Below are positions 20,101-24,329 of a stretch of 64,000 nt of DNA, in pieces. The notes below the pieces were generated by a model. That model was not told where the DNA came from and did no database searches. It saw nothing but the letters and a program-made list of their open reading frames with translations. The stretch lies in contig NZ_LOCQ01000061.1 of the NCBI RefSeq assembly GCF_001677885.1, positions 248,001 to 312,000 on the forward strand, read 5' to 3'. Source of the DNA: Janthinobacterium psychrotolerans. Its GTDB lineage: Bacteria; Pseudomonadota; Gammaproteobacteria; Burkholderiales; Burkholderiaceae_D. A program made the translations under genes and the position numbers. Each line of letters begins with the position of its first letter. Position 1 is the first letter of the stretch.

Positions 20101-20400
20101 AAGGCCACCTCGCGGTGTAACTCCGTCCAGTTAGTGCCCCTGCGCTACGAGTAAACCTGCAAAACGAATTAAAACCCCAGTCGCCCGCACAGGCGCACCG
20201 GGCCAAGCGAGCCTGAAAAATGTCGAGGGCAAGGCGCAGCGACGAAGACAGTACGCATGTACGACGAGGAGCTGCAACGCCGCCATCGGCATTTTCTCGG
20301 GCTCGCGTCTCCGGCCCGCCATTTTTACGTTTTTACGCCTTACGCATTTAAATGCGTCGGACAGCTTAACTGAACGGCACTACACCTCGCGGTGGCCTTT
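20101..20400. terminator. terminator hairpin split by a mobile element, with 12-bp target duplication
   Basis: CACCTCGCGGTG occurs at 20106-20117 and again at 20383-20394. Joining the outer flanks through one copy gives arms AAGGCCACC and GGTGGCCTT around loop TCGC, followed by a T-run: a textbook terminator for the methyltransferase gene ending at 20089. The element at 20118-20382 sits between the two copies. Each half now keeps only a short hairpin (CACC/GGTG). Confidence 0.7.
20118..20382. mobile_element. 265-bp miniature inverted-repeat element, copy A
   Basis: It has no coding capacity of its own. The ends TAACTCCGTCCAGTTA and (reverse complement of the right end) TAGTGCCGTTCAGTTA match at 12 of 16 positions. 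Inside, GCGAGCC at 20207 pairs with GGGCTCGC at 20299 in a longer imperfect inverted repeat, with the palindrome GTACGCATGTAC (20251-20262) at the centre. It is flanked by the 12-bp direct repeat CACCTCGCGGTG. A second copy lies at 24049-24305; over a core of about 175 bp the two differ at about 19 positions by eye. A transposase supplied elsewhere is assumed. Confidence 0.7.
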
Positions 20401-20412
20401 TTGTATTGCCTG

Positions 20413-22062
20413 TTACTTCTTCTCTTCCCTGGCCTTGACCGGCACCAGGTTCAAATCCTGGAAGTCGTAGCTGAAGTCGGTTTCTTCCGAGACCGGCTCC
20501 ATCTTCACGCGGTCGATGCTGCCGTCAGGCTTGAGCGAAAACGTCACATAGGCGTCGGCGTTGAAGTTGCGTTCCTTCCAGCGCACGATAAAGGTGTCGT
20601 GCTGCCAGTGTTCGAGTTCACCGGTCAGGTCCGGCGTGCGCGTAAAGCTCAGGATGTGCTTCTTGCCCTGCGGCGCGATCACCACCTTGCCGTACCAGGC
20701 GTCTTCATACTCGCCGTCATAGCTGGCCAGCGGCAGCGAGGGCTGCGACTTGGCGGCGCGCGCGGTCGACGCCTGGCCCTGCTTTTTCACTTCTTCCGCA
20801 TGCATGTCCTGCTCCACCTTGGACACCAGCGCGATCCAGTCCGACGGCTGGGCGTTGAGGTAATGGTCGACGATGCGCCACTGCAGCGCCGTCATCGAGC
20901 CACCGTTTTCCGCGTTGGTCAGGATCGCCACGCCCAGTTTCGCCTGCGGCACCATCAGCACGCGCGAATAAAAACCCTGCAGCGCGCCGCCGTGCATGGC
21001 CACCTTCATGCCCTGGTAGTCGCGCAGCTGAAAACCCAGGCCATAGGCGCTGAAGTTCGGCTTGGTCGCGGCCAGCGCCGGTTTCGGCTCGCCGATCTTG
21101 ACCGGGGTCTGCGCCGTCCACATTTCGTTGGCCTGCTTTTCGCTGAACAGGCGCGCTTCCTTGCCGTCCTTGCCTTGCACACCGGCGATCTTGCCGCCGT
21201 CGAGCAGCGCCATCATCCATTTGGCGATATCTTCCGCATTGGTGTTGATGCCGACCGCGCCCACCGCGTTCGGCACCGGCATCGACTTGACGGCGGCGAC
21301 CTTGCCATTGATCTTGCTGTGCGCGCTGGCCACATCGGGATTGCCCGCGTTTTCGGCCAGGCTGGTGGTGGTGCCGGTCATGCCCAGCGGCGCCAGGATG
21401 CGCTCGTGCATGGCCTGGCCCCAGCTCTTGCCGGTTTTCTCGGCGATGATCTTGCCGGCCACGATGTACAACAGGTTGTCGTAGGCATAGCTGGCGCGAA
21501 AACTGGTGGCCAGGGGAATATGGCGCAACTTTTCGATGATCTCGTCGGTGGTAAATGTGGTGGTCGGCCACCACAGCAAGTCACCCGCGCCCAGGCCCAG
21601 GCCACTCCTGTGGGTCAGCAGGTCGCGGATGGTCATCTCGCCCGTCACATACGAGTCGTGCATCTGGAAGCCGGGCAGGTGCTTGGTGACCGGATCATCC
21701 CAGGCCAGCTTGCCTTCGTCGACCAGCATGGCCAGCGCGGCGGCCGTAAAGCCCTTCGAGTTCGACGCCACCTCGAACAGGGTCTTGCCGTCGACGGGCG
21801 CCGCTTCGCCCAGCTTGCGCACGCCGAAACCGGTGGCGGCGATCACCTTGCCATCCTTGACGATGGCGATCGCGATGCCGGGCACGTCGAACGTTTTCAG
21901 GGCGCGGTTGACATCGTTTGCCAGGTCAAACGCAGGCACGGGTGCCGCCATCGCGACAGGCGCGGCGGCGGCAGGATCGGCGGCCAGCGCCGGCAAGGCG
22001 GCGCTGGAAAACGCCAGCACAAGGGCGGCGGCAACGGTGTTCAAGCAATACTTGGAGGTCAT
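20413..22062 (-). CDS. exported serine hydrolase, class C beta-lactamase family
   Basis: The 549-residue protein has a signal peptide (cleavage near ALAAD, residue 28) and a beta-lactamase/transpeptidase fold: SxxK at S100-K103 (FEVASNSKGFTA), YxN as Y194-D-N196, and HGG at 357-359 in the place of KTG. A C-terminal domain (about 430-549, DUF3471-like beta sheet) follows. Such proteins are usually peptidases or esterases acting on D-amino-acid peptides, rather than true beta-lactamases. The start at 22062 (MTSKYCLN) gives a proper signal peptide; an upstream in-frame start would add 38 non-conserved residues overlapping the neighbour. It lies 20 nt after the M1 peptidase gene, so the two are probably co-transcribed. 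Confidence 0.85.
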   Translation of the reverse strand: MTSKYCLNTVAAALVLAFSSAALPALAADPAAAAPVAMAAPVPAFDLANDVNRALKTFDVPGIAIAIVKDGKVIAATGFGVRKLGEAAPVDGKTLFEVASNSKGFTAAALAMLVDEGKLAWDDPVTKHLPGFQMHDSYVTGEMTIRDLLTHRSGLGLGAGDLLWWPTTTFTTDEIIEKLRHIPLATSFRASYAYDNLLYIVAGKIIAEKTGKSWGQAMHERILAPLGMTGTTTSLAENAGNPDVASAHSKINGKVAAVKSMPVPNAVGAVGINTNAEDIAKWMMALLDGGKIAGVQGKDGKEARLFSEKQANEMWTAQTPVKIGEPKPALAATKPNFSAYGLGFQLRDYQGMKVAMHGGALQGFYSRVLMVPQAKLGVAILTNAENGGSMTALQWRIVDHYLNAQPSDWIALVSKVEQDMHAEEVKKQGQASTARAAKSQPSLPLASYDGEYEDAWYGKVVIAPQGKKHILSFTRTPDLTGELEHWQHDTFIVRWKERNFNADAYVTFSLKPDGSIDRVKMEPVSEETDFSYDFQDLNLVPVKAREEKK

Positions 22063-22082
22063 GATCAGGTTCCGAATGGGGT

Positions 22083-23942
22083 TCAAGGTATTTGTGCGGC
22101 CATCAATCTGTCGACGCTTTCCTGTGTCACCGGGTGGTAGCGTTCGCGCGCCTTGGCGTACACGTCTTTCGCCCACTGCTGGCCCTGCGGCGTCTTCATC
22201 AGCGCGCCATACAGCGGCACCACGAACTTCTGGCGGCCCACGCTCATCAGAAAGGCTTGCAGCGGCGCGCTGACGTCGTGGCCGGCATTGACCGAGGCCA
22301 GGTAAAAGCGGTAGGCCACTTCATTGTTGCCGCTCTTGCCCACGCCATACACCTGGTCGAGCTCGCGCAGTTGCGCGGCGCTGGCGCGGCCGTTGATATC
22401 GTTCAAAAAATGCATCGATTCGATGGCGATCCATTTGTCCATGCCCAGCTCCTTGGTCGACAGCGCGCCCTGCAACCACGCATCGCGGTGCTGGTCGAGC
22501 AGCGCCAGGCGCGGCGACACCACCGGTTTGGCGCCGGCCGGCACTTTGACGCCGTACAGCCATGCGTTCAATTCGGCTTCCGGCATCACCTCGGGATGCT
22601 GTGCCAGCAGGTTCTTGCGCAGGTAGGCGATGAACTGGTCGGTCGTCACGCTCTGGAAGGCATGCTGGTCGAACCAGCCGCGCAGGAAGGTATCGAATAC
22701 CTTGCGCCCGGCGCGCTGCTCCATGGTGGCCAAAAACCAGGCGCCCTTCGGGTAGATGATGCCGTCGTCGGTATAGGTCTCGGCGGGATTGGCGTCGGCG
22801 TCGCGCGTGACGAGCGCCGTTTTCGCGGCCGGCAGTTCCTTGATCGCCGCGGCCAGTTCTTCCTGGTCGACCTGCACGCCCATCTGCGCCACCTCGCTGC
22901 CATACAGCTGCTCGACGATGCGGGTGGTCACATAGGTGGTAAAGCCTTCGTTGAGCCACATGTGCTTCCACGAGGCGTTGGTGACCAGGTTGCCCGACCA
23001 CGAGTGCGCCAGTTCATGCGCGATCAGGTCGACCAGGCTGCGGTCGCCGGCGATCATGGTCGGCGTCAGAAAGGTCAGGCGCGGGTTTTCCATGCCGCCA
23101 TAGGGGAAGGACGGCGGCAGCACGATCATGTCATAGCGCCCCCAGCGATACGGGCCATACAGCGACTCGGCCGCCTTGATCATTTTCTCGGTGTCGGCCA
23201 GCTCGTATTGGGCGGCCTTGATGCGCGGCGGCTCGGCATACACGGCAGAGCGCGGACCGAGTTTGCGCACTTCCAGCTCGCCGATCGCGATCGCCAGCAG
23301 GTAGGACGGAATCGGCTGCGGCATGCGGAAGGTCCAGCCGCCTTTGCCGGTGGCTTTTTCGTCATTCTCGGCGCTCATCACCACGCGCATGCCGGCGGGC
23401 GCCTCGATGCGCGCGCTGTAGGTAAAGCGCACGGCCGGCGTATCTTGCGACGGCACCCACGAACGCGCGTTGATGCTTTGCGACTGGCTGAACATGAAGG
23501 GCAGCTTGCCCGACATGGTCTGCTGCGGCGTGAGCCACTGCAGCGCGATGGCGCCCGGCGCCGTGTGGTAGTACACGCGCACTTTTTCCGGCTGGCCGGT
23601 GGTGGTGATGCGCAGCGCCTGGCCCTTTTCGGCGTCGGCGGCGTCGAGCTGGAACGGCGCCATCTGCCAGGCGCCGCGACTGTCCCGCACCTGCACCTTG
23701 GCGATCGCCAGATCGCGCGTATCGAGCACCAGCGTGCGCGCGGCCGGGTCTATCCATTTCAGGGTCAGCTCGGCGTAGCCGGACAGGGTCTTTTGCGTGA
23801 AGTCCGCCTTCAGGTCCAGCTGCAGGTCGCGCGTGCGCACCTGGTCATAGCGCGCATAGCTCAAGGGATCGGCTTGCGCGGCCAGGCTGGCCTGGCACAG
23901 CAATGCACAGCCCAGGGCGCGCAGGAAAGTCATCGTTTGCAT
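22083..23942 (-). CDS. exported M1 aminopeptidase, leukotriene-A4-hydrolase-like
   Basis: The 619-residue protein has a signal peptide (MTFLRALGCALLCQASLAAQ) and the M1 layout. An N-terminal beta domain is followed by the exopeptidase motif GGMEN (in SFPYGGMENPRLTFLTP). The zinc site is H309-E-L-A-H313 with E332 in NEGFTTY, and the helical C-terminal domain is of LTA4-hydrolase type. It should remove N-terminal amino acids from peptides in the periplasm. The start at 23942 is an ATG with a weak ribosome binding site; the family length fits. It is the upstream partner of the serine hydrolase. The mobile element copy B begins about 100 bp upstream of the start, so the gene's promoter may have been affected. 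Confidence 0.9.
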   Translation of the reverse strand: MQTMTFLRALGCALLCQASLAAQADPLSYARYDQVRTRDLQLDLKADFTQKTLSGYAELTLKWIDPAARTLVLDTRDLAIAKVQVRDSRGAWQMAPFQLDAADAEKGQALRITTTGQPEKVRVYYHTAPGAIALQWLTPQQTMSGKLPFMFSQSQSINARSWVPSQDTPAVRFTYSARIEAPAGMRVVMSAENDEKATGKGGWTFRMPQPIPSYLLAIAIGELEVRKLGPRSAVYAEPPRIKAAQYELADTEKMIKAAESLYGPYRWGRYDMIVLPPSFPYGGMENPRLTFLTPTMIAGDRSLVDLIAHELAHSWSGNLVTNASWKHMWLNEGFTTYVTTRIVEQLYGSEVAQMGVQVDQEELAAAIKELPAAKTALVTRDADANPAETYTDDGIIYPKGAWFLATMEQRAGRKVFDTFLRGWFDQHAFQSVTTDQFIAYLRKNLLAQHPEVMPEAELNAWLYGVKVPAGAKPVVSPRLALLDQHRDAWLQGALSTKELGMDKWIAIESMHFLNDINGRASAAQLRELDQVYGVGKSGNNEVAYRFYLASVNAGHDVSAPLQAFLMSVGRQKFVVPLYGALMKTPQGQQWAKDVYAKARERYHPVTQESVDRLMAAQIP

Positions 23943-24027
23943 GGTCGTCTTTTGAATGATTTGCGAAAGGCCCCAACATGGTGGCCGGGGCGTCGCGCAG
24001 AATAGCACTTCCGGCAGGGGCTGGCAG

Positions 24028-24323
24028 AAAAAAGCGCCGGGCAGGCCGTGATGCCGTCAGGTTAGCGTCCCAGCGCCAGCAGCACACCGGCAAAACGGAT
24101 TAGCCTCCAGTCGCCCGCACAGGCCAATCGGGCCAAGCGGGCCTGAAAAATGGCGAGGGCAAGGCGCAGCGACGCAGGCAGTACGCATGTACGACAAGGA
24201 GCTGCAACGCAGCCATCGGCATTTTCTCAGGCTCGCGTCTTCGGCCCGCCGTTTTTACGTTTTTATGCTTTTCAATACGTCGGAGAGGCTGACTGAACAG
24301 CATTACCGGGCAGGCTGGTGCTT
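24028..24323 (-). terminator. terminator split by the second copy of the mobile element
   Basis: A 12-nt direct repeat flanks the element: CCGGGCAGGCCG at 24037-24048 and CCGGGCAGGCTG at 24306-24317 (one mismatch). Rejoined through the left copy, the minus strand reads arms AAGCACCGG and CCGGCGCTT around CCTGC, then six T. This would terminate the M1 peptidase gene that stops at 24330. One mismatch lies in the stem. Confidence 0.6.
24049..24305. mobile_element. 257-bp miniature inverted-repeat element, copy B
   Basis: It aligns with copy A end to end and in the same orientation: TGATGCCGTCAGGTTA at the left edge, the central GTACGCATGTAC, and TGACTGAACAGCATTA at the right edge. Its terminal repeats are more decayed than those of copy A (10 of 16 matching). 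The flanking direct repeat has one mismatch, as expected for an older insertion. Spurious short reading frames inside the two copies encode similar peptides (PEKMPMAALQLLVV) only because the DNA is similar. Confidence 0.7.
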
Positions 24324-24329
24324 GTATCA

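Follow-up and report, generated by a model that had tools for sequence, protein, structure and literature searches.

What makes a short mobile element settle in the middle of a transcription terminator, and is it the hairpin that such an element recognizes? The question is raised by two related elements in a 64,000-nucleotide stretch of Janthinobacterium psychrotolerans DNA (NCBI RefSeq assembly GCF_001677885.1, contig NZ_LOCQ01000061.1, positions 248,001 to 312,000; referred to here as the window, whose first letter is position 1), namely copy A (20118..20382, + strand, 265 bp) and copy B (24049..24305, + strand, 257 bp). A preliminary description had taken both for copies of a miniature mobile element that inserts mid-terminator with a 12-bp target duplication and chooses its targets by hairpin structure. 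Taking the evidence as a whole, we consider it very probable that the best explanation lies in miniature elements of the IS4 subgroup that follow a symmetric-terminator target rule.

Copies A and B and their full-length relatives

Both elements and their 12-bp repeats were found where the preliminary description had placed them. Copy A is flanked on both sides by CACCTCGCGGTG (20106..20117 and 20383..20394; 12 bp, identical), and copy B by CCGGGCAGGCCG on the left (24037..24048, 12 bp) and CCGGGCAGGCTG on the right (24306..24317, one mismatch). The terminal inverted repeats of both copies are imperfect and 16 bp long. Relative to TAATGCCGTTCAGTTA, the end found in good miniature copies, the left repeat of copy A (TAACTCCGTCCAGTTA, 20118..20133, + strand) carries three mismatches and the right one (TAGTGCCGTTCAGTTA, 20367..20382, − strand) a single mismatch; the right repeat of copy B (TAATGCTGTTCAGTCA, 24290..24305, − strand) differs at 2/16 positions, and its left repeat (TGATGCCGTCAGGTTA, 24049..24064, + strand) has diverged more than the other ends. 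When the window was searched for TAATGCCGTTCAGTTA with up to three mismatches, we obtained three matches, every one of them an element end, against 0.16 expected. The two copies have 165 nt in common at 92% identity, and an Rfam scan of the region gave a single match, at chance level.

Once the element and one repeat are removed, the rejoined sites give predicted hairpins of −20.5 kcal/mol for A and −17.3 kcal/mol for B. The terminator split by copy A consists of an outer left arm, AAGGC (20101..20105, + strand), and an outer right arm with T-tract, GCCTTTTT (20395..20402, + strand), as delimited by the rejoined fold and by the empty site in relatives; that split by copy B consists of an A-tract with outer left arm, AAAAAAGCG (24028..24036, + strand), and an outer right arm, GTGCTTGT (24318..24325, + strand), both likewise visible at empty sites in relatives.

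We found that the end TAATGCCGTTCAGTTA is identical to the ends of an autonomous insertion sequence (IS) of the same genus. Full-length elements with the same 16-bp ends on both sides occur four times in genome G033 (1425 bp) and once in G034 (1418 bp), with transposase reading frames of 443 amino acids (G033) and, from a TTG start, 449 amino acids (G034). The G033 transposase (P0001) has the domains Nterm_IS4 and DDE_Tnp_1, scores above the cut-off of the NCBIfam model transpos_IS4_1, and carries the Y-(2)-R-(3)-E-(6)-K motif (Y310, R313, E317, K324) as well as, by alignment, the conserved residues D133 and D210; a PDB sequence search with the transposase returned no match at E 0.01. The IS4 subgroup is described as having 10–13 bp duplications, -AATR ends and a length of 1400–1650 bp (De Palmenaer et al., 2008; PMC2266710), and the G033/G034 element shows TAATGCC ends, 1418–1425 bp and 11–12 bp duplications. 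Because the ends of A and B match those of a same-genus full-length IS whose transposase carries Nterm_IS4 and DDE_Tnp_1, the two copies are best assigned to the IS4 subgroup of that family, of which they would be members lacking autonomy. They also have the features of miniature inverted-repeat transposable elements (MITEs), that is, ends like those of an autonomous element, a target duplication, and a length too short for a transposase gene. A transposase with matching terminal repeats is thus present in the same genus (G033, G034), though not in the J. psychrotolerans genome itself; matches to Nterm_IS4 occur in 4/40 genomes of the genus sample. All five full-length copies in G033 and G034 sit mid-hairpin in a terminator (5/5, duplications 11–12 bp), the G034 site being scored as its duplicate L116 (Janthinobacterium sp. 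UMAB-56); for full-length copies in G031 and G026 the second flank was not usable.

Empty sites were sought in relatives at 30 loci per copy, out of 38 genomes matching at A and 33 matching at B, the own genome among them. At the A site, G015 (neighbouring gene 96%) holds exactly AAGGCCACCTCGCGGTGGCCTT between the two genes. The empty A site was exact in 5/29 relatives and had one mismatch in 5/29; in the other 19/29, nothing within four substitutions lay between the genes, and several hold 500–800 bp there. At the B site, a hairpin of the expected form (up to six substitutions from the 27-nt reconstruction) occurs in 24/29 relatives; G018, G006, G026 and G027 gave no match, in G006 apparently owing to a longer loop. 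In G033 (L339), too, an element end stands where copy B lies, and copy B therefore probably predates the split from G033. Given that A is absent from the G015 counterpart and that an end stands at the B site of G033, the two copies may differ in age. The reconstructed sites were thus met in relatives (A in 10/29 with at most one mismatch, B in 24/29), and these, together with the same ends on an autonomous relative, bear out the view of A and B as mobile. A simple terminator scanner detected the empty B site in G016 and missed the empty A site in G035, perhaps as the stem extends into the T-tract; it was left out of all counts.

Forty-five places in the J. psychrotolerans genome resemble copy A (blastn). 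Among 45 own-genome loci checked for ends, paired end repeats were present at 15 (L018 and L019 being doubtful, with weak ends); at 11 of these 15, the two copies of the target duplication differ at one position or none, in agreement with the duplication first described for A and B. For a single end at C12:91979 in this genome, a second end with which to pair it was not found. Matches to copy A occur in 33/40 genus-sample genomes (own included), and many of those listed cover the inner part alone.

Insertions at terminator hairpins

We scored each site for a terminator-like hairpin whose centre falls no more than 2 nt from that of the duplication. Full-length sites came from a bacterial genome scan with an alignment of five transposases, which gave 79 loci (50 with two ends and flanks, 12 with two ends but flankless, 17 lacking an end); L157 and L158 were excluded because of N runs, L075 and L116 are the same and were counted once, and the addition of nine IS sites led to a set of 57, genus and plasmid copies included. 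In the genus miniature set, 34/40 further loci could be paired, with L250, L256, L257 and L263 (one close end) and L261 and L262 (no acceptable pair) left out. For Escherichia coli IS4, 25 loci were fetched from a spread listing of 60 among 2,739 records, which is not a random sample; they yielded 14 sites distinct by left flank, or 12 places (L268/L269 by bamD and L273/L277 by adhE), of which 13 sites (11 places) were covered by the scoring, and the 14th, L286, was folded separately (−13.2, centred). Sites with more than one duplication mismatch were kept for the score and the offset test and excluded from the analyses of tracts, motif, pairing and duplication length.

A terminator-like hairpin was present at 42/57 full-length IS sites, at 8/15 own-genome and 14/34 genus miniature sites, and at 11/13 E. 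coli IS4 sites (9/11 places). Control positions passed far less often (1.36% of 48,194 positions overall; 1.28% of 6,022 within 150 bp; 1.74% of 4,135 in the E. coli flanks). When the centre was shifted, the 76/120 sites that pass at the duplication centre fell to 0–9 of 119–120 at each of 16 offsets of 3–40 nt in either direction, and at 37 of 44 IS sites there was strong pairing about an axis no more than 12 nt away, each of these axes (37/37) falling 1 nt or less from the middle of the duplication.

These offsets bear directly on the notion that insertion is near-random and that copies in terminators simply persist since they are harmless to genes. Most of the fetched E. coli sites do lie between annotated genes, and some miniature copies are found at non-terminator sites, as survival alone would have it; selection, however, cannot centre the duplication on the axis in the way seen both in the shift test and in the 37 IS axes, and we regard survival alone as a very improbable explanation.

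In a tree of 45 transposases, the rows were labelled terminator (34), palindrome only (5) or other (6; L183 had no scored site), and the terminator trait spans E. coli IS4, Colwellia, a Legionellaceae bin, Rhodocyclaceae, Burkholderiaceae and Oxalobacteraceae. Very long branches (L122, L139 and L193, perhaps frame errors) make the finer order of this tree unsure.

Tracts and inverted repeat around the axis

We then considered what, within a terminator, is read. Across 98 axis-aligned sites, A stands at positions −10 to −13 in 80, 80, 76 and 66 sites, and T at +10 to +13 in 85, 80, 78 and 66. Pairing at positions 3–9 averaged 79%, compared with 58% (maximum of 200 shuffles, 61%) when right halves were swapped among sites and the axis was re-chosen for each shuffle. 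A first partner-shuffle control (31–46% pairing) proved too lenient, since the axis had been picked for pairing, and was replaced; because the control with re-chosen axis stands at 58%, we slightly lowered our confidence and raised the standing of the alternative that follows. Per position, pairing was 84–95% at full-length IS sites (n=43) and 71–93% at E. coli sites (n=14); the excess is strong for these two sets and slight for the miniature copies.

It is conceivable that the transposase reads a sequence motif only (an A-tract, some 18–20 bp, and a T-tract), the hairpins being incidental since terminators commonly carry such tracts. The fixed distance of the tracts from the axis is what this would predict, the motif without the repeat is itself enriched 20-fold at IS, 196-fold at miniature and 249-fold at E. 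coli sites, and pairing at miniature sites is little above shuffled. Motif and inverted repeat together, in comparison, are enriched ~12,600-fold at IS sites (repeat alone 7.5-fold), 3,700-fold at miniature sites (repeat alone 8-fold) and 9,300-fold at E. coli sites (repeat alone 14-fold, against a background that is not from E. coli). Among motif-bearing sites, the repeat is present in 30/31 IS sites, and in a smaller excess at miniature (8/17) and E. coli (7/11) sites, as against 4% of 486 background motif loci, 9% of the 97 at high G+C, and 20% of the 30 with seven or eight tract letters and high G+C. Moreover, at position 4 of well-paired sites G-C (28) is as common as C-G (29), from which it follows that pairing, not the base, is kept there and that complementarity matters; elsewhere, C tends to prevail in the left arm and G in the right. 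We therefore hold a motif-only rule to be unlikely, while noting that the original proposal of target choice by hairpin structure stands in part: the hairpin belongs to the signal, and the A- and T-tracts 10–13 bp from the axis are marked equally strongly.

A further possibility is that the transposase is attracted by transcription, either through RNA polymerase paused at the terminator or through the RNA hairpin. The targets do resemble terminators, at which polymerase pauses. The signal, however, is symmetric on both strands: both tracts flank the inverted repeat at 30/31 IS, 7/9 miniature and 5/6 E. coli sites (42/46 in total), leaving one-sided sites at 1/31, 2/9 and 1/6, although tract-bearing inverted repeats in the background are more commonly one-sided (20/84 with both tracts, 32 T-only, 32 A-only; pooled Fisher p = 3e-14). 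As one-sided repeats are so little used, these data speak for the reading of two-fold symmetric DNA and disfavour a simple link to the direction of transcription, and we give a transcription-coupled route even less credence than a motif-only one.

Under the symmetric-terminator rule that we favour, a 443-amino-acid DDE transposase would act in trans from a full-length element (~1.4 kb, as in G033 and G034), excising the miniature copies and pasting them elsewhere; a cut-and-paste route is stated for the IS4 family (PMC2266710). The paired transposase ends would prefer a two-fold symmetric target composed of about four A, an inverted repeat (usually at least 6 bp) enclosing a loop mostly of 3–6 nt, and about four T, which is the DNA of a bidirectional intrinsic terminator. 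Strand transfers lie ~12 bp apart (11–14) with the axis of the repeat as their midpoint; the duplication thus comprises the loop and the inner stem, and the terminator is split, a few innermost base pairs staying at either junction beside one half of the outer stem.

Duplication length proved not to be set by loop length (Spearman −0.05, n=63; +0.08, n=57, for stems of at least 6), and duplication parity did not follow axis parity to a significant degree (15/9 and 14/22, p = 0.11). Given these null tests, an apparent 4 + loop + 4 pattern in several E. coli sites is not claimed.

It has to be said that a number of observations weigh against this account. A Pfam profile search of the J. psychrotolerans genome gave no match to Nterm_IS4 (PF13006). 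The hairpin score is missed by 20/34 genus and 7/15 own-genome miniature copies, and thus the mid-terminator insertion of the preliminary description holds for the 76/120 centred sites without being absolute; 18/40 miniature and 8/44 IS sites have neither motif nor inverted repeat; and miniature sites pair at 48–78% per position (n=40), against a pooled shuffled mean of 58%. Two of the 14 E. coli sites (12 places) lie inside genes (yicI and an FAD-binding oxidoreductase), and the K-12 IS4 site barely passes the score (−8.1). One supported clade of seven rows in the transposase tree, with Massilia cavernae, M. timonae, Duganella sp. OV510 and a metagenome bin, is without the terminator trait and has at several sites GGGTCAGACC-type palindromes, or else other sites. 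The background for motif and repeat was 400 kb of G033 plus the window, whereas the sites come from many genomes. Finally, the missing link of duplication to loop length or parity argues against cutting that is measured from the loop.

More tentatively, and more probably wrong than right, IS4-subgroup transposases may sense the geometry of base-pairing, for example a cruciform extruded at a symmetric terminator, and not base sequence, with intrinsic terminators serving as safe havens across much of the subgroup. If true, these enzymes would be DDE transposases guided by structure, and yet their target duplication would be of the ordinary staggered kind.

Internal repeat, effects on terminators and known systems

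Both copies contain a palindromic repeat around GTACGCATGTAC, at 20201..20322 (+ strand, approximate bounds) in copy A and at 24131..24252 (+ strand, approximate bounds taken from the 3930-nt offset between A and B) in copy B. This repeat of ~120 bp is intergenic and occurs elsewhere without IS4-type ends in both orientations (e.g. L018, L021–L027), and in most of 11 other copies aligned with A, similarity ends near its edges. That it exists alone would be expected if A and B were ordinary intergenic palindromic repeats that do not transpose; in view of the target duplications, the empty sites in relatives and the full-length IS with the same ends, we find this scarcely credible, and the elements of the window are best read, on comparison of the copies, as IS4-type ends placed around a repeat that also exists on its own. 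A plasmid search with copy A gave one match, partial, in Massilia.

Several further observations were made along the way. In the same-genus genome G006, the 26 fetched loci (L224–L249) hold short miniature elements whose IS4-type ends are near-perfect and whose length is mostly 158 or 197 bp, and this genome, despite them, gave no Nterm_IS4 match. In E. coli, more than one strain has IS4 in the terminators by bamD and adhE; the two adhE insertions are of opposite orientation, with duplications of 11 and 12 bp, and look like independent events at one hot spot. Six full-length elements (L110, L140, L141, L146, L149 and L161) have flanks unlike each other, each resembling half a terminator, a pattern that recombination between two insertions would produce. 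A clade comprising L143, L144, L163, L167, L154, L156 and L159 has variant ends (TAATGGCGTTGACTTA and others) along with GGGTCAGACC-type palindromes or other targets, a possible shift of target.

With respect to the terminators themselves, 55 sites were picked because the hairpin, when intact, is strong (−12 or lower); the local hairpins predicted at their junctions have medians of −6.6 and −7.3, weaker than the intact ones (−17.5). When the full stretch is folded, the outer arms on either side of copy A are still predicted to pair with each other, with the element lying between them. Under a terminator rule, termination may be altered at gene ends carrying such insertions.

A large transposon family has IS4 as its type element, and a terminator rule would have a concrete bearing on it. 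The 2008 survey describes an unexplained, 'spectacular' specificity for the target arms in some elements of the IS4 subgroup, its main text being without the word terminator (De Palmenaer et al., 2008; PMC2266710), and terminators may be what explains it. We found no statement of such a rule for the IS4 subgroup in the open-access literature (including PMC10969869, PMC9330008, PMC10044804 and PMC11677980, as far as their accessible text goes), and an earlier one elsewhere is possible; the available part of a 2024 review of bacterial MITEs does not mention IS4. Terminators are common, lie outside genes and are alike in many bacteria, which suggests a safe-haven strategy, and the sensing of an inverted repeat by a DDE transposase becomes a directly testable question.

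Among known systems, IS1272 of the IS1182 family also targets inverted repeats of unrelated sequence (PMC5678879). It differs in that it is reported to replace the stem-loop with no target duplication, in a main text likewise without the word terminator (PMC5678879), and an IS1182/IS1272 type for A and B is ruled out by their 12-bp target duplications. IS231A, an IS4-family member, shares duplications of 10–12 bp (PMC2266710) and, according to the title of a paper cited there, bending of its target DNA. It belongs to another subgroup than the relatives of A and B. Its target is said to follow a fixed-sequence consensus. Class C group II introns are retroelements that also insert at intrinsic terminators, but they do so after the stem and without a target duplication of the kind seen at A and B. 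E. coli IS4 and its subgroup have the same -AATR ends, a single transposase reading frame with the YREK motif and 10–13 bp duplications, with terminator-like hairpins at 11/13 of the E. coli sites scored. Older work reportedly gave an AAA-N20-TTT consensus for IS4 and an IS4 insertion in the pheST attenuator, neither of which turned up in our open-access literature search. The copies of the window differ from the IS4 subgroup in being without a transposase, while sharing its ends and its duplications.

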